Below are positions 8,294 to 50,523 of a stretch of 64,000 bases of DNA, piece after piece; the first letter of the stretch is position 1, and every line of letters begins with the position of its first letter. The notes below the pieces were generated by a model. It ran no database searches. It was not told the DNA's origin and saw only the letters and a program-made list of their open reading frames with translations. The DNA lies in NCBI RefSeq assembly GCF_000152885.1, contig NZ_CH672405.1, forward strand, positions 162,658 through 226,657, written 5' to 3'. The DNA is from Idiomarina baltica OS145. Lineage in GTDB: Bacteria; Pseudomonadota; Gammaproteobacteria; Enterobacterales; Alteromonadaceae. Position numbers and translations under genes: made by a program.

Positions 8294-9061
8294 TTAGGTC
8301 AGTTTGAGCACCCAACTCAGCGGTAAGCGCTTCATTAAAAAACCAATAACGCACCACGGCCAACCGGGTACATAGGCTTTGACGGGCGCTTTCTCTATGG
8401 CTTTTACCATTTTACGACAGCCCTCTTCGGTGCCAATCATAAAGGGTGTGTTCTTTACTTTTTCATTAATTTCCGAGCGAATATAACCCGGGAATAATGT
8501 GGTGACTTTGATAGGACTGTTGTTGCCATAGGTCTTAAGCAAATCAGCGCGGATCCCTTCAGACATCGATGCTAAACCGGCTTTGGTTGCCGCATATACC
8601 GTCATTGCACGCGGCATGCCACGCAATGCACTCATCGAGGCGATGGTGATCAAATGACCTCGCTCTTGTGCTCTGAAAATACCCATAGCCGCCTCGCATT
8701 GGGCCAACGCAGCAACAAAGTTCGTTTCAGCCGTGGCTCGATTAGCGGCAAAGTACCCTGTGCCTAACGAAGCGCCTTTACCCATCCCAGCATTAACAAC
8801 GATTTTATCAATCGCGCCTGCCTCTGATTTAAACCGCTCAAACACGTCAAATACATCATCGTGTTGGTTAACATCAAGCGCTGCAATGTATACGTTAGCT
8901 TTTGGGTAAGCTTGCTCGATTTCACTTTTCAATGCTTCTAAACGCTCAATGCGCCGTGCGCACAGGCACAAATGATACCCTTTACTGGCAAATTCCCTTG
9001 CCATGCCCTCGCCCAGTCCAGAACTGGCGCCCGTTATTAATACGGTTTGTTGTTTTTGCAT
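8294..9061 (-). CDS. Short-chain dehydrogenase/reductase in an acyl-CoA dehydrogenase operon
   Basis: Classical SDR of 255 residues: nucleotide-binding loop TGASSGLGEGMA at about 10-21, NAG at about 90, catalytic Ser in IASMSALRG and the YxxxK motif in YAATKAG. The C-terminal end has hydrophobic and basic residues (VIGFLMKRLPLSWVLKL), suggesting membrane association. It is the last gene of a three-gene operon, 13 nt after the APH-fold kinase gene. In Pseudomonas putida the Lva pathway contains an SDR (LvaD) that reduces the 4-keto acyl-CoA; a similar role here is inference from the gene trio only. Substrate unproven. Confidence 0.8.
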   Translation of the reverse strand: MQKQQTVLITGASSGLGEGMAREFASKGYHLCLCARRIERLEALKSEIEQAYPKANVYIAALDVNQHDDVFDVFERFKSEAGAIDKIVVNAGMGKGASLGTGYFAANRATAETNFVAALAQCEAAMGIFRAQERGHLITIASMSALRGMPRAMTVYAATKAGLASMSEGIRADLLKTYGNNSPIKVTTLFPGYIRSEINEKVKNTPFMIGTEEGCRKMVKAIEKAPVKAYVPGWPWCVIGFLMKRLPLSWVLKLT

Positions 9062-9074
9062 AATACACGTCCAT

Positions 9075-10157
9075 TTATTGTTTTATTTTGCGACGGCAAC
9101 GCCATAACAAGTAGTTGACCAAAAACCAGAAGTTTTTAAACGCTGGATTATTCGTTTGCTTATGGTGATAACGATAATAAATCTGCTGAGCAATTACGGC
9201 GAGGCGGAATAAACCAAACACCTCATAGAACTTAAAGTCAGCCACCGCTACGCCCGTCTGCTGACAATAATAGTCGATGATTTCTGCTCTATTTAACATA
9301 CCTGGATAATCACTCGGTTGTCGTTTCGTCGCCCGGGCAATTTTGTCGTCGTCAGATTGAATCCAGTAGGCCAACGCATTACCCAGGTCCATCAGCGGGT
9401 TACCGAGCGTCGCGAGCTCCCAATCAAGAATGCCAATGATGTGAGTCGGGTTATCAGCATCTAATACTAAGTTGTCCAAACGAAAATCATTGTGCGTCAT
9501 GCAAATGGTCTCGTCGCTCGGTTGGTTTTCTCGAATCCAGCGCATGATGCTTTTAGCGCCAAATACGTTCCATGTTTTCGCCCGCTCAAATCGATTGCAC
9601 CACCCTTCTACCTGCCGCTGGGTATAGCCTTTGCCTTTCGCTAACCGTCTTAGACCCGATGCATTGATATCTACATTATGTAACGCGACAAGGCGGTCAA
9701 TCGCGTTTAAACATAATTGCCGCGCTTGTGTTTCACTTAACTCCAGTTGGCGGGGAAAGTGACGACGCGGAATAATTCCCTCTATATGACGCATCACATA
9801 AAATTCAGCACCAATAACCGACTCATCCTTGCAGTGTGCAAGCACTTCCGGCACCTCTGGAAAATACGGCTTAAGCGCTTTTTGAAAACGATACTCGCGC
9901 CCCATGTCGTGCGCCGACTTCGCCTTAGTGCCATCGGGAGGACGACGTAAAACGAGAGCGACGTCATGATAATCAAGCCGGTACGTCCAATTAGATGCGC
10001 CCCCTGTATACTGAGTGACCATCAGGTCCCCGGAAACATCACTGAATACGTCGGGCAATTCGGCTTTTAGCCACGTATCAAGCTGTTCAATGGGTAACGA
10101 CTCTTCCGTTCTAACCGGAGAAGACTGGTCAAGTACGCTGTTTGCATCAACGCTCAT
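9075..10157 (-). CDS. APH-fold phosphotransferase, LvaA / ACAD10-11 kinase-domain type
   Basis: A 360-residue kinase of the aminoglycoside/choline phosphotransferase fold. Seen: N-lobe loop GGASNWTYRL near 52-61, a lysine-like/arginine strand VLRRPP, the catalytic loop HNDFRLDN at 222-229 and the metal-binding DWE at 245-247. This subgroup is related to the N-terminal kinase domain of animal ACAD10/ACAD11 and to P. putida LvaA, which phosphorylate 4-hydroxyacyl-CoA; antibiotic resistance is not implied. The ATG overlaps the upstream acyl-CoA dehydrogenase by 11 nt and is preceded by AGGAG at 7 nt, so the two products are probably made together. Exact substrate unknown. Confidence 0.85.
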   Translation of the reverse strand: MSVDANSVLDQSSPVRTEESLPIEQLDTWLKAELPDVFSDVSGDLMVTQYTGGASNWTYRLDYHDVALVLRRPPDGTKAKSAHDMGREYRFQKALKPYFPEVPEVLAHCKDESVIGAEFYVMRHIEGIIPRRHFPRQLELSETQARQLCLNAIDRLVALHNVDINASGLRRLAKGKGYTQRQVEGWCNRFERAKTWNVFGAKSIMRWIRENQPSDETICMTHNDFRLDNLVLDADNPTHIIGILDWELATLGNPLMDLGNALAYWIQSDDDKIARATKRQPSDYPGMLNRAEIIDYYCQQTGVAVADFKFYEVFGLFRLAVIAQQIYYRYHHKQTNNPAFKNFWFLVNYLLWRCRRKIKQ

Positions 10158-40856: not shown

Positions 40857-41342
40857 ATGGAAAAGTATGAAGAGCTTTTACTCGCGTTACGTAAAGTCAT
40901 TCGAGCCATTGATCTGCACTCCAAACAACTCAACAAATACTCGGGATTAACCGCGCCACAGTTACTCATTCTACGTGAAATTGTTGCTCGGGATGGTATT
41001 ACCGCAAGTGAAGTCGCGCAAAATATCACGTTAAGCCCGGCAACGGTCTCAAATGTTATTGAGCGAATGGAGCATCGCGGTTTAATCTATCGTCGACGTA
41101 GCAACACCGATAAACGTCGAGTGTTGATGTACATTACCGAGCAAGGTCAATCGCTACTGGCTCAAGCGCCACAACCCTTACAGGAAGACTTTATTGAGAG
41201 GTTTCAAGCACTTGATGAGTGGGAGCAATCCTTGCTGCTATCATCAATGCAACGAATTGCGACCATGATGGATGCTGAGCGGCTTGACGCAGCCCCCGTC
41301 TTGGAAGTAGGTAGTTATCACAAAATGGACAAGCATTCATGA
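40857..41342 (+). CDS. MarR family transcriptional regulator
   Basis: 161 residues with the MarR winged-helix layout: N-terminal dimer helix, LTAPQLLILREIVARDGITA, recognition helix block LSPATVSNVIERMEHRGLI, and the wing RRRSNTDKRRVLMYITEQG. A TAGGAG sits 7 nt before the ATG. The stop overlaps the start of the following secreted nuclease by 4 nt, so it is cotranscribed with it and may regulate it. The ligand is unknown. The C-terminal 30 residues extend beyond the usual fold. Confidence 0.9.
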   Translation: MEKYEELLLALRKVIRAIDLHSKQLNKYSGLTAPQLLILREIVARDGITASEVAQNITLSPATVSNVIERMEHRGLIYRRRSNTDKRRVLMYITEQGQSLLAQAPQPLQEDFIERFQALDEWEQSLLLSSMQRIATMMDAERLDAAPVLEVGSYHKMDKHS

Positions 41343-43072
41343 ATAAACTTTTTATCGCCATGGCTGTGCTACTCAATACCACAGCCGCCTATGCTCAAGA
41401 CTGTGGTGAAAAGCAAGCCGATATTACCCCGATATCCACTATTCAAGGTGAGGAATGGCAGTCTCCTCTAGTTGGGCAGAACGTAACCACTTCGGGAACA
41501 GTCACAGGAAAATGGACGGCTAACGATCAGCTGGCTGGATTTTTCATACAAAGCACAGAGCCCGATAACAACCCGAGAACATCTGAAGGTTTATTTGTTA
41601 GCTCAACAACCCAACAACCTTTTTCAGAAGGCGATTTTGTGGTTGTTACAGGACAGGTGACAGAAGCCAACGAACAAACACGTCTCGTTGACGTGACTTC
41701 GCTTTCGGCATGCCCTCAAGCACGCCCGCTACCCGCGCCCGTTGAAGTTAAGTTGCCTTTTAAAAGTAATGAACAACGCGAGCAACTGGAAAATATGTTA
41801 GTTACATTAGTCGCCGAAAGTGGGCAAGAACTAACAATCTCCGGTCATTATCAATTACCACGTCATGGCTACTTTGACGTATCCAGTGGTCGTTTGTTTA
41901 CCCCATCACAAATTGTTGAGCCAGGCGCTGACGCACGCGAGCAAATGCGCATCAACCAATTGAATCGTGTTCAAGTAGACGATAACAGTGATGTAGAACC
42001 CAACACACTTCCGTTTGAACAGCTGACGAGCTCAGCGCAAAACTCAATGCGCAGCGGAACAACGATGATGCCGATTGTTGGCATTCTTACAGAGTTTCGT
42101 GGTAGAGCACGCATTCAGCCTACGGAAGCCGTAGTCGCAAAACATATTAGCGAGCCAGAGACACCCAAGGCAAAGGATGAGTATCTACGAATCTCAAGCT
42201 TTAATGTGCTAAACCTGTTCAATGGCGATGGTGACAAAAATGGTTTCCCGACCGAACGCGGTGCGAAAAGCTTCGATGCGTATCAACGCCAACAAGCTAA
42301 AATTGTCTCAGCGCTGGTCGACATTGACGCCGATGTGTTTGGCTTAATGGAGGTTGAGAATGACGGTTACGGCTCCGACAGTGCAATTGTACAGCTCGTT
42401 AATCAGTTAAATGAGGCACAAGATAGCCCGTATGTTATCGCCGAGCCAAGAGCTCAACGATTAGGTGACGATCAAATTGCTGTCGGTCTCATTTACAATC
42501 GTAATCGCGTTAAACCGATTGGTCATGCGCATACAATAACTCAAGGTCCTTTCCGCTCAGGTAGCCGACCACCTTTAGCGCAAGTGTTGGAGGACAAGCA
42601 ATCCGGGCAGCAATTTACCGTTATCGTAAACCACTTCAAGTCGAAAGGTGGATGCCCTGACAATGGACCTAACGCCAACCAAAATGATGGTCAATATTGC
42701 TGGAATCAGCAACGCCTTGACTCAGCCGCGGCGCTAATCGAGTGGGTCAAGCAAAATGCATTCCCAGCACCTGTGCTATTAGGGGACTTCAACGCCTACT
42801 ACAAAGAAGACCCGGTACAGTACATAGCGAACCATGGTTTTAGTAACGTCTCGCGCGCCGACGAATACTCTTATGTATTTGATAGTCAAGCCGGTGCGCT
42901 AGACCACGTGTTTATTGATCAGGGTTTGACCGACAGCGTTAAAAATGTCCAACATATTCATTATAATAGTGATGAACCCACGGTATTTAGCTACCAAGAT
43001 ACCGAGTACTTCAAGGTGGGACCCTATCGCTCATCGGATCACGATCCAGTGTTTATCGATGTTGAGTTCTAA
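41339..43072 (+). CDS. ExeM/NucH-type secreted endonuclease/exonuclease/phosphatase family nuclease
   Basis: 577 residues. Signal peptide MNKLFIAMAVLLNTTAAYA; then an OB-fold-like N-terminal domain (about 30-265) and the C-terminal endonuclease/exonuclease/phosphatase domain starting ISSFNVLNLFNGDGDKNGFP. Catalytic blocks: GLMEVENDGY (metal-binding Glu), VNHFKSKGG, LGDFNAYYKEDP and SSDHDPVFIDV. This matches the ExeM group of extracellular DNases used by Shewanella and Vibrio to digest extracellular DNA for phosphate, nucleosides or biofilm turnover. No C-terminal sorting tag is present. Coupled to the MarR gene upstream by a 4-nt overlap. Confidence 0.88.
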   Translation: MNKLFIAMAVLLNTTAAYAQDCGEKQADITPISTIQGEEWQSPLVGQNVTTSGTVTGKWTANDQLAGFFIQSTEPDNNPRTSEGLFVSSTTQQPFSEGDFVVVTGQVTEANEQTRLVDVTSLSACPQARPLPAPVEVKLPFKSNEQREQLENMLVTLVAESGQELTISGHYQLPRHGYFDVSSGRLFTPSQIVEPGADAREQMRINQLNRVQVDDNSDVEPNTLPFEQLTSSAQNSMRSGTTMMPIVGILTEFRGRARIQPTEAVVAKHISEPETPKAKDEYLRISSFNVLNLFNGDGDKNGFPTERGAKSFDAYQRQQAKIVSALVDIDADVFGLMEVENDGYGSDSAIVQLVNQLNEAQDSPYVIAEPRAQRLGDDQIAVGLIYNRNRVKPIGHAHTITQGPFRSGSRPPLAQVLEDKQSGQQFTVIVNHFKSKGGCPDNGPNANQNDGQYCWNQQRLDSAAALIEWVKQNAFPAPVLLGDFNAYYKEDPVQYIANHGFSNVSRADEYSYVFDSQAGALDHVFIDQGLTDSVKNVQHIHYNSDEPTVFSYQDTEYFKVGPYRSSDHDPVFIDVEF

Positions 43073-44061
43073 TGCTGTTTGTTACCAAACCTGAGCTCAA
43101 ACTCAACACCTAGCATCCAGTGGCCTCGACGGGTTTCATAACGTTCCTCTCGAGGCCAATGGTGCCCCACCCATGTCTCCATCAACAGCCACGACTTGTA
43201 TATTCGGCGCCTATCAAGTACCCGAATACCATAATCCGTTACCGTAACAGGAGCTTCGTTTTCTCCTTCGGACCAAATTTCTGTTGCATAGGCATGATCA
43301 TTACCTGTTAAAAAATAGACCGTTGCCGATGAGCCCCACCGCACACCCTGCGTCTCTTGAGCAAAGGTCCCGATCGCGGACCATTTAGTGACAACATGTG
43401 TTGTTAATTGAGTTTCGGTATCGATACGTTGTGCAACACCAAAACCATCACTATCGCGCCAAAATACTGAGGATTCCCAGCGCATTAAACTGATATCTGA
43501 CAAAATGCTATCAACCCGATAGCGAGCACGCGCATAGGTATCAAGCTTAATACCGCCCCGCACCCCAACACTGTAGGTCAACCGGTGTGCTTCGTTTACT
43601 TGACGGCTAAAACCTAGCCCAATAAGCCACTCATCATCTGTATTTGGAGAGTTGATCACTGAAGGCTTACCCACGTCCTGCTGGTCTAAAAACTCACCCT
43701 CGTCGACTTGGCCTAGAAAAGCCGAGAAATCTTTTTTTGCGTGTGGCAGCTGAAATCGGGCACGAAATCGTGAATCGACTTCAAACTTATGGTAACCCGA
43801 CCACTGCGGCGCGACTGTTAAGCGTCCATAAGTTTCATGTTCACCACTGTTCATGCCTCGGTCAGCAAAAAAACTGTCAACCCAGCGAGCGCTGGACTCA
43901 ACGGAGGTCTCTAAACCATATCTAAACTGCTCAAGCCAACCATCTGAGGTATTTTCTTGAGACACCGAACTCGAGTCATTCGCATCTGATTGCGCCTGTG
44001 CAAGGGAAGGTGCTGTCCATAGCACGAGCATAAAAATTCCACTCACATAAATCTTTTTCAT
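43069..44061 (-). CDS. Unknown exported protein, possible outer-membrane beta-barrel
   Basis: 330 residues with a clear signal peptide (MKKIYVSGIFMLVLWTAPSLAQA). The mature part has many alternating hydrophobic/polar strands rich in aromatic residues, such as HRLTYSVGVRGGIKL, HVVTKWSAIGTF and RWGSSATVYFLTGN, and ends in the strand GHWMLGVEFELRFGN with His at the last position. This fits an outer-membrane barrel of about 12 strands, though the terminal residue is not the classic Phe. No family recognised. Converges on the nuclease gene with a 4-nt stop overlap. Confidence 0.55.
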   Translation of the reverse strand: MKKIYVSGIFMLVLWTAPSLAQAQSDANDSSSVSQENTSDGWLEQFRYGLETSVESSARWVDSFFADRGMNSGEHETYGRLTVAPQWSGYHKFEVDSRFRARFQLPHAKKDFSAFLGQVDEGEFLDQQDVGKPSVINSPNTDDEWLIGLGFSRQVNEAHRLTYSVGVRGGIKLDTYARARYRVDSILSDISLMRWESSVFWRDSDGFGVAQRIDTETQLTTHVVTKWSAIGTFAQETQGVRWGSSATVYFLTGNDHAYATEIWSEGENEAPVTVTDYGIRVLDRRRIYKSWLLMETWVGHHWPREERYETRRGHWMLGVEFELRFGNKQH

Positions 44062-45249: not shown

Positions 45250-47265
45250 TTAAGCGTGCCAGCCGAGTTCTTGAGCACGCTGTTGAGCTTGCTTTGGAAC
45301 ATCGGTTGCGACGAAGTGATGATGTAACACTTGTACACCGAGCATATGGTTGATAACTGCATCAAGCTGTACTTGCTCTTCAGCGGTGACATCACTTGAG
45401 CTGTGACGCGCAAACACGGCTTGTACCGCATCAAAATCGAGTAAGCCCGCATCCTTTACCGCTTGCTCACTCAAAAACTCCTCCGCTAAACGTTCTACTG
45501 CTTTCCATTTTTCGGGATCGGTATGCGCAGGTGGCGCCATAAATGCAAACTTTTCGCGTTTATAGAGCGTTTCCGGCAACAAGCCTTTCATCGCTTCACG
45601 CAATACATATTTCTCCTTGTTACCTTTTATGCGTAAATGCGGAGGCACCGTAAAGGCGTATTCTGCTAAGTGATGATCGAGAAACGCAGGTCGCGCTTCC
45701 ATTGAGTTAGCCATATCCACGCGGTCCCCGCCCCATGTTAGAATTTGCCCCTCTAACATGGTTTTAATCCACACGTACTGTGCGCGATCAAGTGGGTGTC
45801 GTCCGGCCAAATAAGTTTCATCTAGCGTATCCGCTATTGCCTGACCCGGGTCATAGTTCCCTAATTGCTTCTGTAGATCCCTGTTAATAAGCGGTTTAGC
45901 GACGCTACTGCAAGAGAGCCAAGGCTGTACACAGCTCGGCGTGAAGCCCACTTTTTTATTCAAAGCGTCGCTGCTGAATTCTTCTCGAGCCAGCATTGCC
46001 CCTTTAAACAACTGATTATTTTTTTCCAGTAGCTTTTGCCACTCGAGGCGCTCAATTTCGGGTAGATGATCGAGGCCATGCAAAAACATATCCTTGCGAA
46101 ACGCTGGATAACCGGCAAATAGCTCATCCGAGCCCTCACCCGTCATAACGACTTTATAACCCGCCTCATGCACTTCCTGACTCATCAGGTACTTGGCAAC
46201 ACCCAGCGTGTTGTAGATCGTCCGCTCGGTATGCCATAGGGTTTTTACAAAATGATCGTACAAATCATTCGCCTTGAGCGCCATAATGTGATGGTCAGCG
46301 TCAGTCGCCTCGGCCATTTCACGCGCAATGGGCGTCTCGTCATAGTCGTCCGAATCAAATCCAATAGTGAACGCCTTAACTGAGGTTTGGGTCGATGCCG
46401 ATGCAAGACCCAAGATCGAGCATGAGTCGATGCCTCCCGAGAGATAGCAGCCTACGGGTACATCAGCGGTCATACGATGCTGTACCGCCTCTAAGAGCTT
46501 TTCACGCACGCCCTCGACATATTCTGTCTCATCGACCTCATCACCGGGGTAGTCGTGTTCATTAGGAAAATCCACGTCCCAGTACTTCAGCGTATCGATA
46601 TTGAGTGTGCCATTATTACGTTTGATTTTAACCACTTGCCCAGGCTGCACTTGATGAACTCCTTCAAATGCCGTTGAACCGGGCACCATCACTTGAATCA
46701 GTTGGTGGTATAAGCCCTCAGCAGAAAACGCCCGCTTTACTTGCGGATGAGCGAATAGCACTTTCAACTCCGATCCAAAAACGACACCTTCGTCTGTCTC
46801 AGTCCAGTAAAGGGGCTTAATACCAAAACGGTCACGCACTAAATAAAGTGCATCTTCGTCTTTATCATACAAGCCAAATGCAAACTCACCCCGTAGTTCC
46901 TTTAATGTGGCTTCGAGGCCATAGCGTTCAAATAGATGAAGTACGATTTCAGAATCGCTTTTCGTTCTAAAACGCGCCCCCCGTGCCGTCAAATCGGCTC
47001 GAATACGTTTGAAATCATAAAACTCACCGTTGTGAGTTAGCATCAGTCGTTCATCAGCAGACAAAAAAGGTTGCTTAGCACGCTCTTCATCTAAGTCAAT
47101 AATCGATAACCGAGCATGACTAAAACCAATCCCCTGCTCCGATTGTATGTGATAGCCATATCCATCAGGACCCCGATGATGCATTATCGCAGCCATATTG
47201 ACCAAGGTCTGAGCGTCGATAGGATCATTGACGCGGTGATTGAATACTCCAGCAATTCCGCACAT
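45250..47265 (-). CDS. AsnB-type glutamine-dependent amidotransferase (asparagine synthetase family)
   Basis: 671 residues. N-terminal class II glutaminase with the catalytic Cys2 (MCGIAGVFNHRVN), HHRGPDGYGYH and LTHNGEFYDF; C-terminal synthetase with the ATP PP-loop YLSGGIDSCSILG near 270-282 and MTGEGSDELFAGYP. All catalytic groups are present, so an ATP- and Gln-dependent amidation is expected. Asparagine synthesis is one option, but the gene is the last of an operon with a divergent carbamoyltransferase and a solute symporter, and related AsnO enzymes amidate other carboxylates in compatible-solute synthesis. It is larger than E. coli AsnB (554). The start is 17 nt after the carbamoyltransferase stop. 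Confidence 0.85.
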   Translation of the reverse strand: MCGIAGVFNHRVNDPIDAQTLVNMAAIMHHRGPDGYGYHIQSEQGIGFSHARLSIIDLDEERAKQPFLSADERLMLTHNGEFYDFKRIRADLTARGARFRTKSDSEIVLHLFERYGLEATLKELRGEFAFGLYDKDEDALYLVRDRFGIKPLYWTETDEGVVFGSELKVLFAHPQVKRAFSAEGLYHQLIQVMVPGSTAFEGVHQVQPGQVVKIKRNNGTLNIDTLKYWDVDFPNEHDYPGDEVDETEYVEGVREKLLEAVQHRMTADVPVGCYLSGGIDSCSILGLASASTQTSVKAFTIGFDSDDYDETPIAREMAEATDADHHIMALKANDLYDHFVKTLWHTERTIYNTLGVAKYLMSQEVHEAGYKVVMTGEGSDELFAGYPAFRKDMFLHGLDHLPEIERLEWQKLLEKNNQLFKGAMLAREEFSSDALNKKVGFTPSCVQPWLSCSSVAKPLINRDLQKQLGNYDPGQAIADTLDETYLAGRHPLDRAQYVWIKTMLEGQILTWGGDRVDMANSMEARPAFLDHHLAEYAFTVPPHLRIKGNKEKYVLREAMKGLLPETLYKREKFAFMAPPAHTDPEKWKAVERLAEEFLSEQAVKDAGLLDFDAVQAVFARHSSSDVTAEEQVQLDAVINHMLGVQVLHHHFVATDVPKQAQQRAQELGWHA

Positions 47266-47282
47266 CTTCGTTTTTCCTTGTG

Positions 47283-48350
47283 TTATACGACATCGATAAC
47301 GCGCTCAGCGCGTTGAACCATACACGTAAGTAGCGCCATCCTCAAAAACACCGCACCTCGAGCTTGGCTGAAATACCAGTTATGCGGTGTATGATCGAGA
47401 TCCGTTGCTAGCTCAGGTCCACGAGCCAATGGGTGTAAAATAATAGCGTCTTCTTTCAAAGGCGACTGTGCATCCAAACTAAACGACTTACCATACGTAT
47501 TGAATGTCTCTCCCTCCCAAGATATCGCATTGATGTAGACCACATCGATATCTGGCAACGTTGCATTCAAATCAGTCGACGTCCGCACATGAATGCCTGC
47601 TTGCTCTATCTGCTCTCTTTGCTGTTCAGCAAATAGATGCTCTGATACAGAGTCATCATGAATAATGACCAACTCTTTAATCGCATCCGGAAATTTGAGT
47701 AAACTTTTTATCAGGCTCCTAACAGTTCGCATTCTATTGGGGACACCAATAATACCCACACTCACCGCGTGTTGTTTAGCATCGGCTGTCGTTAGTTCTG
47801 GTTTCCATTTAAACAAGGCATAAAGGTCAGCTAGCGCCTGCGTTGGATGCTCATCACATCCATTACCTGCATTGATGATCGGTATTCTCAACGAATCGAT
47901 CATTTCCTCTAACGAGGACTCGTTGTTATCTCTTAGTACGACACAGTCGCCATAGTTATTAAACATTTCAGCGACATCGGCGAGGCATTCTCCCTTAGCA
48001 ATCCCAGTAGTAGAGCGATCAGTGATCGACATAATATCGCCGCCTAAACGGTGCCAAGCACTCTCAAATGAGAGTCGCGTGCGCGTACTCGGCTCATAGA
48101 AGGCAGAAATTAAGATTTTGCCCTGCAACGACGTGCTAAAACGTCGTGGATTGGCCTCGTACTTTGCTGCGAGTCGAAACAACTGCAACATACCATTTTG
48201 TGTAAACTGATCCGACGAAACAATGTGTTGATTAGCCAGTTTCAACAGGTAATCACCATCCTCTTGAATCGCTCTTAGCAATGCTTTGGGATGTGCGTCG
48301 CCGCACACGTCAGGTCTGTCCCGCTCAAAGGAAACATCCTTTATATTCAT
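47283..48350 (-). CDS. Aspartate/ornithine carbamoyltransferase-family protein with altered acceptor site
   Basis: 355 residues with an N-terminal extension of about 40-50 residues relative to E. coli PyrB. Carbamoyl-phosphate residues are kept: STRTR at 88-92, Lys119 in AKGE, Arg140, HPTQ at 168-171 and Arg208. The aspartate-binding loop is not: where E. coli has TRVQKER (Arg229, Gln231) this protein has NAISWEG (274-280), and the HPLPR loop is HPLAR (306-310), with Pro268 replaced by Ala. It is neither OTCase (no HCLP). I therefore expect carbamoyl transfer to a different amine. There is no pyrI next to it; neighbours are AsnB-type and symporter genes. Confidence 0.8.
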   Translation of the reverse strand: MNIKDVSFERDRPDVCGDAHPKALLRAIQEDGDYLLKLANQHIVSSDQFTQNGMLQLFRLAAKYEANPRRFSTSLQGKILISAFYEPSTRTRLSFESAWHRLGGDIMSITDRSTTGIAKGECLADVAEMFNNYGDCVVLRDNNESSLEEMIDSLRIPIINAGNGCDEHPTQALADLYALFKWKPELTTADAKQHAVSVGIIGVPNRMRTVRSLIKSLLKFPDAIKELVIIHDDSVSEHLFAEQQREQIEQAGIHVRTSTDLNATLPDIDVVYINAISWEGETFNTYGKSFSLDAQSPLKEDAIILHPLARGPELATDLDHTPHNWYFSQARGAVFLRMALLTCMVQRAERVIDVV

Positions 48351-48354
48351 ACAG

Positions 48355-48477
48355 TTACCATATTGATTTAGAAAAATAATCTTTTAAAAACAGACCGATG
48401 AGTACCACCGGCGCTAATACTGTGAGTATGAGCGCCCCCGTGACCAATAAATAAAATGCAGTTTCTGAAATAATCAT
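48355..48477 (-). CDS. 40-residue symporter-associated membrane peptide
   Basis: A short gene read directly from the sequence: 40 residues with one hydrophobic span (YLLVTGALILTVLAPVVLIG) then a charged end FLKDYFSKSIW. Its ATG overlaps the symporter stop by 4 nt (ATGA), and AGGAG sits 8 nt upstream, inside the symporter gene. It ends 4 nt before the carbamoyltransferase ATG. Position, size and topology match the small accessory proteins encoded after sodium:solute symporters in several bacteria; whether it is needed for transport is unknown. Confidence 0.75.
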   Translation of the reverse strand: MIISETAFYLLVTGALILTVLAPVVLIGLFLKDYFSKSIW

Positions 48478-49895
48478 TGTCCATTCTCCTGCAATTCATG
48501 CCACGAAAACTGACGTTTGTTGAATACAATACCGATTGCACAAATCAGGCCTGATACAGCACAAGAAACCAATGCTGCGACGTAAAATCCAATCCAAAAA
48601 TAAGCGATCAGCCCGGCTATCGTACCTGCCGCCATCGCTATTCCAGCGAAAGTCCCTTGCAGACGTCGCCAGTAAAGCCCTATCACGATAGGCCAAATGG
48701 TGCTTGCGACAAAAGCTCCCGCAAAGTTTAACAGCGCACCCAAGGTCGCTATTCGCGGCAAGCACAAGAGCCAGGTCATCACGCCAATGCCGAGCAAGCA
48801 GTACCGATTAAACCGCATCAGTTGCTGATCAGATGCGTGCTTCTTAATTAATTTATGATAGATATCCTGAGTGACTAAGTCAGACGAGGCCGCCAGCAAA
48901 GAGTCAAGACTAGACGCCAACGCCGAGAACACAACAATAAATACCAGTATGGCACCTGTTTTGCCGAGCACCGATGCAGCAACCGCCGGCCCTATCATAT
49001 CGGCCGATGCCGGAAATATGCCCAGTTGTGGCGCGGCCAATGCAATGAATCCAGTCACAACTGGAATCGGTAGCCACAACAAGCCACCGGTTAAATAAGC
49101 TTTGTATGCGACATCCTTACGAAAGGACAAGGCTCGCGACCACCACACATTTGAGTGAAAAATTTCTCCCAATCCGAAAAATATATTATTAAACAAAAAC
49201 ATCACAGCGGCGGGAAATAGCAGATCTAATAGCTGCGGGTGCGCTTCACTCAGCTCTGTATGTATACTGGTTAAGCCCACGTTATCGATCAACCAATAAG
49301 CCACGACAGCAACACCGACGATAATAATTAAGGCTTGAATAAAGTCGGTAGCAATAACTGCGCGTAAGCCACCAAATAACGTGTAGCCCACACACATCGC
49401 CAAAATAATCGTCATGCCAATGTAATAATCCAAGCCGCTTAGTGCTTCGAGTAGAATACCGCCCGCCATACCGAGGCTCACCAGCCAACCAAAGGCATAC
49501 ACCACAGAAATTACCAAGAACACGGCCCAAGCGAAGCGACCATAGCGCAATCGGACAAAGTCGCCCGATGTGTAACCTTGCGGCAGCAATTGTTTAATTC
49601 GTTTAGCCATCGGCGCGAATAACAACAATCCCAACGCAGCAAAGGAGTACCCGACCATCCCCCATACACCTAACTGATAAGTGAGTTGAGGCGCCACCAA
49701 GGTTGTATTGCTCGTCACCCATGTCGCCATGGCGGTTGCCGCTGCGAACGCGAAACCAACATTCCGCCCGGCTAGCGCAAAGTCCTCATGAGACTTATTC
49801 TTTCGCCCGAGCCAAACACCAAAAGCAATCCATACCAAGGCAAAGCCAACGATAATGAACAGTGCAGTCTGTGTATCCAGCGCAAATTCAGTCAT
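48474..49895 (-). CDS. Sodium:solute symporter (SSS family)
   Basis: 473 residues with about 13 hydrophobic segments. Family blocks: GRKNKSHEDFALAGRNVGF at the start, AMATWVTSNTTLVAPQLTYQLG, GLRAVIATDFIQALIIIVG and SALASSLDSLLAASSDLVTQDIY near 320-345 (the sodium-site Ser-Ser-Asp region). Substrates of this family include amino acids, sugars, betaine-like solutes and carboxylates; the sequence does not fix which. It overlaps the exported-protein gene upstream by 8 nt and the accessory peptide gene downstream by 4 nt, so it is in the same operon as the carbamoyltransferase and AsnB-type enzyme. Confidence 0.9.
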   Translation of the reverse strand: MTEFALDTQTALFIIVGFALVWIAFGVWLGRKNKSHEDFALAGRNVGFAFAAATAMATWVTSNTTLVAPQLTYQLGVWGMVGYSFAALGLLLFAPMAKRIKQLLPQGYTSGDFVRLRYGRFAWAVFLVISVVYAFGWLVSLGMAGGILLEALSGLDYYIGMTIILAMCVGYTLFGGLRAVIATDFIQALIIIVGVAVVAYWLIDNVGLTSIHTELSEAHPQLLDLLFPAAVMFLFNNIFFGLGEIFHSNVWWSRALSFRKDVAYKAYLTGGLLWLPIPVVTGFIALAAPQLGIFPASADMIGPAVAASVLGKTGAILVFIVVFSALASSLDSLLAASSDLVTQDIYHKLIKKHASDQQLMRFNRYCLLGIGVMTWLLCLPRIATLGALLNFAGAFVASTIWPIVIGLYWRRLQGTFAGIAMAAGTIAGLIAYFWIGFYVAALVSCAVSGLICAIGIVFNKRQFSWHELQENGQ

Positions 49896-50358
49896 TAGCT
49901 ACCGCCTTCTTGTGTCCCATAATTAATGTCAGCAACAATAATAGAAATAGCAATGCGCCCAACAAAAACAGTGTCAACGCCTGCCAAATCGGATAGTGCT
50001 CAACAGTGACTTCAATCGCCGTTTGGCTGACCACGCGCTGTTGATGCACGGCGCGAATATAATAATGACCTGATTCGAACCCTGTCAGGGTCACTTGGTT
50101 GAAGTTGCCCATGATTGGCACGGTCTGCAGTAAGCTGGCAAAAGACTTGGATTGACTCACTTGGAGTGACAAGGGGCGTAATGTCGGCGAGACGTGATCG
50201 AGCTCAACAACGAAATAGCCCGCACGCACTTTCTCGACAGGTCCAGAAAGCACAACGGCATCCTCGCTCTGCGCCACCGCCGAACAAGATATTAATATAG
50301 ATAACAACGCAAATAGCGCTTTGTTATAGCTTTTCAGCCACACCTGAAAGCTTGTCAT
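49888..50358 (-). CDS. Unknown exported protein with one C-terminal membrane anchor, symporter operon
   Basis: 156 residues from the ATG at 50358 (weak ribosome-binding site); an upstream in-frame ATG at 50445 lacks homology and signal-peptide sense. Layout: signal segment ALFALLSILISCSAVAQ, a beta-rich domain of about 90 residues with GHYYIRAV (Ig or fibronectin-type III-like), then a C-terminal transmembrane helix TLFLLGALLFLLLLLTLIMG and a basic end. It may be an extracytoplasmic partner of the symporter, which starts 8 nt before this gene ends. It is the first gene of the operon. No family recognised with certainty. Confidence 0.6.
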   Translation of the reverse strand: MTSFQVWLKSYNKALFALLSILISCSAVAQSEDAVVLSGPVEKVRAGYFVVELDHVSPTLRPLSLQVSQSKSFASLLQTVPIMGNFNQVTLTGFESGHYYIRAVHQQRVVSQTAIEVTVEHYPIWQALTLFLLGALLFLLLLLTLIMGHKKAVAND

Positions 50359-50523
50359 AGCATGAGTTCTTATTATCTTTGACACAAATTTCAGCCTATC
50401 AGCGGTTCTCGGGCTTTTCAACTTAACTGGCTGAGTATGACGCATTGATACATAATTCTTAACAATTCGCTAATTTCAATAAAATCAGATAACTTGATAC
50501 AAACCAATTAGTTTTGAATTGCG

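Follow-up and report, generated by a model that had tools for sequence, protein, structure and literature searches.

A five-gene operon at the Idiomarina locus

A stretch of 64,000 nt from Idiomarina baltica OS145 (NZ_CH672405.1, 162,658-226,657; hereafter the window, in whose coordinates all positions are given) contains a cassette of five genes, among them a carbamoyltransferase (CTase), an AsnB-type amidotransferase and a sodium:solute symporter, which is a candidate pathway for a carbamoylated and amidated compatible solute (Table 1). The initial annotation had placed the five open reading frames (ORFs) head to tail on one strand with spacings of -8, -4, +4 and +17 nt, and all four values were found to be exact. 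The Pfam domains Asn_synthase (309.5 bits), OTCace_N (135.4 bits), OTCace (42.8 bits) and SSF (110.1 bits, gathering score 22.8) each scored above their gathering thresholds; the Pfam search returned no match for the 40-residue peptide or the anchored protein, and no NCBIfam model matched the peptide. An alternative in-frame ATG at 50445 would give an anchored protein of 185 residues.

Table 1. Genes of the cassette and a possible regulator, in window coordinates
Feature	Position	Strand	Remarks
AsnB-type glutamine-dependent amidotransferase	45250..47265	-	671 aa; GATase_6/7 + Asn_synthase
Carbamoyltransferase (CTase), clade of its own	47283..48350	-	355 aa; OTCace_N + OTCace
One-helix membrane peptide	48355..48477	-	40 aa; conserved ORF between SSF and CTase
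Sodium:solute symporter (SSF/SSS family)	48474..49895	-	473 aa; Pfam SSF
Exported protein, C-terminal helix anchor	49888..50358	-	156 aa; signal-like N terminus, read from sequence
MarR-family regulator, possible cassette regulator (weak link)	40857..41342	+	Pfam MarR 58.2 bits

A scan of named genomes yielded 183 CTase relatives, of which the best 80 were analysed. The gene order, whose conservation the initial annotation had left to a survey of other genomes, is kept at all 80 of these loci, with the symporter upstream of the CTase and AsnB following on the same strand; the AsnB matches of two loci (L054 and L081) reach the contig end. This recurrence of the SSF-CTase-AsnB order exceeds chance. 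The closest record among the best 80 of 183 is a metagenome-assembled genome (MAG) of the Idiomarinaceae (L004) with a CTase identical to that of the window. Cassettes were found in Idiomarina and its relatives, Kangiella, Pleionea, Alteromonas, Bowmanella, Pseudoalteromonas, Kordiimonas and Nitrosomonas halophila, genera that are mostly marine or halophilic, and also in MAGs labelled Hyphomicrobiales and Cyanobium. An even sample of the class, 369 genomes in size, gave 25 with a match to the CTase at E<=1e-60 (23 close relatives and 2 distant ones only). Twenty further close loci (L160-L179) were also read: AsnB directly follows the CTase in 18/18 of those with downstream room, and upstream of the CTase in these 18 lies a symporter in 16 cases and hydrolase genes in 2. 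The anchored protein was matched by tblastn at 35/35 Idiomarinaceae loci and at 29/55 other loci.

The initial annotation had called for a search for a separate pyrB and asnB/asnA in the genome, since the CTase would be PyrB if there were no other aspartate carbamoyltransferase. The I. baltica genome, which is 98.9% complete, encodes three OTCace_N proteins: the window CTase, a PyrB (317.6 bits; TIGR00670 cut-off 236.95) and an ArgF (303.2 bits; TIGR00658 cut-off 280.85). AsnA is also encoded elsewhere in the genome (292.4 bits). The window AsnB is the sole strong Asn_synthase match, the two other PF00733 matches scoring 24.3 and 22.9 bits; one of these two, L135, was read by eye as MnmA. With PyrB, ArgF and AsnA separately present, the cell can make pyrimidines and asparagine without either cassette enzyme. 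The presence of AsnA makes asparagine synthesis by the window AsnB unnecessary, without excluding it.

Acceptor site of the carbamoyltransferase

The window CTase scores 194.4 bits against the aspartate carbamoyltransferase (ATCase) model TIGR00670 and 95.4 bits against the ornithine carbamoyltransferase model TIGR00658, in both cases under the cut-offs given above. Its AlphaFold2 model (mean pLDDT 84.3) has the ATCase fold, and Foldseek aligned it to 1ekx with TM scores of 0.76 normalized by query length and 0.87 by target length, at about 30% identity. Residues were compared over 97 rows in E. coli PyrB mature numbering; besides the window protein these cover 96 loci, among which close relatives are numerous. 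Lys84, Arg105, His134, Gln137 and Arg167 are retained in 97/97 rows, and Ser52, Arg54 and Thr55 in 96/97, the remaining row being gapped there. Arg229 is replaced in every row by alanine (89), serine (7) or threonine (1), and Gln231 likewise by alanine (60), serine (35), threonine (1) or valine (1); Ser80 is changed to glycine in 97/97 rows and Pro268 to alanine. Both Arg229 and Gln231 are retained in the PyrB of the same genome and in that of six phototrophs, and the CTase Arg167 stands where E. coli ArgI has asparagine.

We take Arg167 to be the contact to the α-carboxylate of aspartate in ATCase, and Arg229 and Gln231 to be the contacts to its side chain. Because Arg167 is kept and Arg229 and Gln231 are lost, we infer that the CTase would accept a neutral α-amino acid instead of aspartate.

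A phylogenetic tree placed 20 family rows, together with a distant trio on a long branch, behind a branch with 100/100 support, apart from PyrB and ArgF. The trio (L180-L182) is 36-38% identical to the window CTase and has several replaced catalytic residues (e.g., His134 or Arg54), and no AsnB was seen in these short loci. The long-branch position that the tree gives it within the family was distrusted, and it was not counted; these proteins are possibly non-catalytic or re-purposed carbamoyltransferases. A search of plasmids with the CTase gave 64 matching records, all below 60% identity, and the named ones among the 15 listed are PyrB.

The AsnB-type amidotransferase

The window AsnB-type protein scores 456.3 bits against the asparagine synthase model TIGR01536, above its cut-off of 267.1. 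Its catalytic residues were checked in 94 rows with E. coli mature numbering, 2 truncated rows of 95 loci being excluded. Cys1, Arg49, Asn74, Asp98, the SGGxDS loop, Glu348, Asp351, Glu352 and Lys449 are invariant in 94/94 rows, and Glu348 is a mark of ammonia transfer as opposed to cyclisation. With all of the AsnB catalytic residues invariant, ammonia transfer onto an adenylated carboxylate is the expected reaction. The earlier reading that both catalytic cores are kept and that the acceptor site of the CTase is changed was thus borne out by comparison with E. coli PyrB and AsnB.

The symporter and its one-helix peptide

The window symporter scores 145.2 bits against the NCBIfam superfamily model TIGR00813, under the cut-off of 184. 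Peptide ORFs in the spacer between symporter and CTase genes were picked by a hydrophobicity filter, their start codons being uncertain. A hydrophobic ORF of 38-60 residues was present in 83/83 loci having both genes, and in all 83 its last residue is tryptophan. The same filter selected an ORF on the reverse strand in 1/83 spacers and in 132/1660 shuffled spacers. The 40-residue membrane peptide of the initial annotation is therefore present and is better described as a member of a conserved one-helix family ending in tryptophan. This peptide is likely a small subunit of the symporter, possibly of an SSF subclass.

The CTase/AsnB pair in phototrophs

The original description of Nα-carbamoyl-L-glutamine 1-amide (CGA) is reportedly that of Galinski and Oren in 1991; sucrose is another solute of the producing organism, Ectothiorhodospira marismortui. 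CGA is named as a solute of this organism, alias E. mobilis, in a passage of PMC1224877. Reaction-centre genes mark 6/369 genomes of the class sample as phototrophs. Both members of genus g110 among these six carry the CTase at E<=1e-163, and the other four have PyrB/ArgF-level matches only. In the family to which g110 belongs (f108), the CTase is present in 41/47 genomes and in 38/38 of the high-quality ones; the six genomes without it are at most 80% complete.

All 10 g110 genomes contain pufLM, and a search for ectC found it in none of the 10. Six of the 10 have betA above the cut-off and one (G106) has a match below it; the betA search gave no match in G322, G371 and G373. G322 and G373 are sisters (93.5% identity across some 17.9 kb of aligned locus sequence), as would be expected of E. 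mobilis and E. marismortui. According to passages of PMC7824335, the synthesis of betaine from choline (betABI) is a further trait of Ectothiorhodospira species other than E. mobilis and E. marismortui; E. magna is without betaine synthesis. The lack of ectC argues against Halorhodospira and fits Ectothiorhodospira as PMC7824335 describes it. From the pufLM, ectC and betA patterns together, we infer that g110 is Ectothiorhodospira, and the sister pair G322/G373 fits E. mobilis/E. marismortui.

In all 10 g110 genomes a single block contains a sucrose synthase gene on the opposite strand, an M20 hydrolase, an isochorismatase-fold protein, the CTase and AsnB; an MscS channel was matched at 5/10 of these loci, two of the matches being short. 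The occurrence of the CTase/AsnB/M20 block in g110 is the strongest new evidence for a link to CGA. At one locus (L125 of G376, 8654-9678) the CTase is split over two reading frames in the assembly, through a lesion or possibly a sequencing error. At another (L128 of G412, 8408-9493), which belongs to a phototroph of a different f108 genus, the CTase neighbours resemble an acyltransferase and sucA by eye. The non-phototrophic f108 genera g196 and g274 (L127, L129-L132 and others) are probably Thioalkalivibrio and relatives.

Putative turnover genes linked to the cassette

An M20-family gene is in view at 48/55 loci outside the Idiomarinaceae by tblastn, a raw count composed of 39/45 named-genome loci and 9/10 loci chosen from the 41 f108 CTase positives. 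ORF clustering alone had detected it at 42/55 loci, and several of the loci that lack it are short contigs. The M20 copy of I. baltica lies on another contig and shares 61% identity with the M20 protein beside the Aliikangiella cassette. All three M20 examples scanned pass the TIGR01879 cut-off of 204; the linked protein of L123 scores 367.2 bits and the I. baltica copy 346.5. The best-scoring equivalog of all three is the N-carbamyl-L-glutamate amidohydrolase model, under its cut-off of 520 (384.8 for the L123 protein). Because the L123 protein also passes NF006771, the allantoate amidohydrolase subfamily (522.9 against 399), its name does not fix its substrate. A decarbamoylating hydrolase beside a carbamoyltransferase would answer a need for recycling of N-carbamoyl amino acids.

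A proposed pathway for CGA, and alternatives

We consider, with a probability of about 70%, that the cassette makes, recaptures and turns over CGA, or a molecule close to it, which would act as a compatible solute. The CTase would move the carbamoyl group of carbamoyl phosphate onto the amino group of a neutral α-amino acid, most likely glutamine, and the AsnB-type enzyme would adenylate the α-carboxylate of the resulting N-carbamoyl amino acid and amidate it with glutamine-derived ammonia. The symporter and one-helix peptide would retrieve leaked solute or import solute. For turnover, the M20-family carbamoylase and, in some genera, the isochorismatase-fold amidase would undo both steps, and the MscS channel adjoining some phototroph loci would let the solute out on down-shock.

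The initial annotation had already read the genes as carbamoylation, amidation and symport of an osmolyte, and this is supported by the acceptor residues, the adjacency of M20 genes and the g110 pair. The symporter is the part that holds in some lineages only: as an operon partner it stands at 80/80 kept loci (the best 80 of 183), but no symporter match was found at the locus itself in 10/10 g110 genomes. Several other observations weigh against CGA synthesis as well. The assignment of functions to CTase, AsnB and symporter draws on sequence and gene context, and the Ectothiorhodospira identity of the phototroph genomes is itself derived from gene patterns. The M20 gene is present at 0/35 Idiomarinaceae loci and nowhere in the window, and the CTase of G412 has no AsnB within the 18 kb read. 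A supposed anti-correlation of the cassette with ectoine genes was rejected: ectC is above the cut-off in 2/23 cassette genomes and in 50/346 others (Fisher p 0.76), and is thus neither enriched nor depleted.

The literature also bears on this point. One review treats CGA as a minor solute known so far from a single organism, and in Raman spectra taken from E. marismortui extracts no signal could be assigned to CGA, which was not in the spectral library (PMC3857566); the cassette is far wider than one organism, which speaks against CGA as its product. A passage of PMC7824335 mentions sucrose, CGA or NAGGN in other purple sulfur bacteria. Passages of a study of Thioalkalivibrio versutus name glycine betaine and sucrose, not CGA; g196, possibly Thioalkalivibrio, carries the CTase. 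In T. versutus D301 at 3 M Na+, excerpts of PMC9062515 describe nitrogen uptake and GlnA as strongly up and betaine genes as not significantly changed. This response would suit a four-nitrogen solute, in passages that do not contain CGA and for a strain not known to be among the genomes searched. A literature search on CGA and on the enzyme and osmolyte combinations found no CGA genes named in the passages of PMC1224877, PMC3857566, PMC7824335 and PMC5231179, with most subscription journals outside its reach.

The alternative that survives best, and which we regard as unlikely but worth keeping in sight, retains the same chemistry with another amino acid, such as asparagine, glutamate, alanine or a β-amino acid, so that a related amide and not CGA would be made, at least outside Ectothiorhodospira. 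The residue changes reveal the loss of contacts to a side-chain carboxylate, but they do not point to a particular side chain; identity between the g110 and window CTases is no more than 59-62%, and the best equivalog of the carbamoylase, below its cut-off, is the one for N-carbamoyl-L-glutamate. However, the known solute of E. marismortui is a glutamine compound, and the main active-site residues compared are identical or alike throughout the family, a point in favour of a single substrate.

It is improbable that the cassette is instead a catabolic or nitrogen-scavenging module, in which N-carbamoyl or hydantoin-type compounds are imported by the symporter and the CTase runs in reverse to yield nitrogen or carbamoyl phosphate, with no osmolyte involved. 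The M20 carbamoylase-family and isochorismatase-fold genes that adjoin the cassette are compatible with such a role, and a cluster of E. coli around ygeW combines a carbamoyltransferase with a hydantoinase. An AsnB that hydrolyses glutamine and has kept every catalytic residue, however, is expected to be biosynthetic, and the sucrose synthase and MscS neighbours and a mostly saline distribution point to osmoadaptation. A pure housekeeping role, that of a divergent aspartate carbamoyltransferase standing beside an asparagine synthetase with no joint function, is hardly credible even though the nearest solved structures and the top-scoring curated families belong to ATCases and asparagine synthase, since it is contradicted by the separate PyrB, ArgF and AsnA, by the loss of Arg229/Gln231 in 97/97 rows and by the pairing kept at 80/80 (best 80 of 183) and 18/18 loci.

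Returning to CGA synthesis, we lean towards a broader conclusion: that CGA is a common compatible solute in marine and haloalkaliphilic bacteria which has so far been missed. It would be made by a CTase of a new acceptor class and a dedicated AsnB-type α-amidotransferase; a symporter dependent on a one-helix subunit would take CGA back up, and a carbamoylase and an amidase, both dedicated to it, would recycle it. The gene set would make this orphan osmolyte traceable in genomes, and the pathway is directly testable. With the cassette, the carbamoyltransferases would gain a new acceptor class, and the reading of proteins otherwise named aspartate carbamoyltransferase and asparagine synthase would be corrected. 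If true, many marine and soda-lake bacteria would make a solute with four nitrogens, which could matter both for dissolved organic nitrogen and for the nitrogen demand of cells at high salt. The presence of the CTase in all 38 high-quality f108 genomes suggests re-examining the solutes of Thioalkalivibrio-like members for CGA.

Flanking genes and a possible regulator

The cassette is flanked on one side by a gene for an MsrA-MsrB protein and on the other by genes for an HPPK-domain protein and an SDR protein, the best model of the latter being dihydromonapterin reductase with a score below the cut-off; these neighbours appear to lie outside the cassette. The window MarR protein is 58% identical to a MarR protein encoded directly upstream of the Aliikangiella cassette (L036). 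CosR and EctR1, regulators of ectoine genes elsewhere among bacteria, are also MarR-type according to a passage of PMC7876524. No NCBIfam match by the name CosR or EctR was obtained for the window protein, and a literature search for such membership was empty. The MarR gene is adjoined by a gene for an exported endonuclease/exonuclease/phosphatase-type protein (41339-43072), near which lies a minus-strand gene for a protein without a Pfam match (43069-44061); neither belongs to the cassette. Scans for promoters and terminators gave no excess relative to shuffled sequence, and an Rfam search gave no match.

Comparison with known systems

The window CTase resembles PyrB (E. coli K-12 pyrB, PDB 1ekx/1d09) in its fold, its carbamoyl-phosphate residues and Lys84, His134, Gln137 and Arg167. 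It differs in that the RxQxER loop of PyrB is (A/S/T)-I-(A/S)-W in window-type CTases, that it falls below the curated cut-offs and that its genome has a separate PyrB. The ygeW-ygeX-ygeY-hyuA cluster of E. coli likewise has a carbamoyltransferase next to hydrolases, including a phenylhydantoinase, but the window CTase scores 34.6 bits against the YgeW cut-off of 453, and there is no AsnB among the nine genes shown for E. coli.

The window AsnB-type enzyme shares the glutaminase and synthetase catalytic residues of E. coli AsnB and passes the same TIGR01536 model; it differs in being linked to a carbamoyltransferase, and asparagine can come from AsnA. The M20 proteins scanned pass TIGR01879 as do N-carbamoyl-L-amino-acid hydrolases of the hydantoinase-carbamoylase family, but here the M20 enzyme would act on an endogenous osmolyte. 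The enzymes of NAGGN biosynthesis include an AsnO-type amidotransferase. NAGGN is itself described as a compatible solute in a passage of PMC1224877. The window protein scores 312.5 bits against the NAGGN amidotransferase model TIGR03104 and misses the cut-off of 570.1. The two pathways would be alike in that an N-blocked glutamine is proposed to be amidated at its α-carboxylate, yielding an uncharged osmolyte, and would differ in that the N-block is here a carbamoyl group, added by a carbamoyltransferase.

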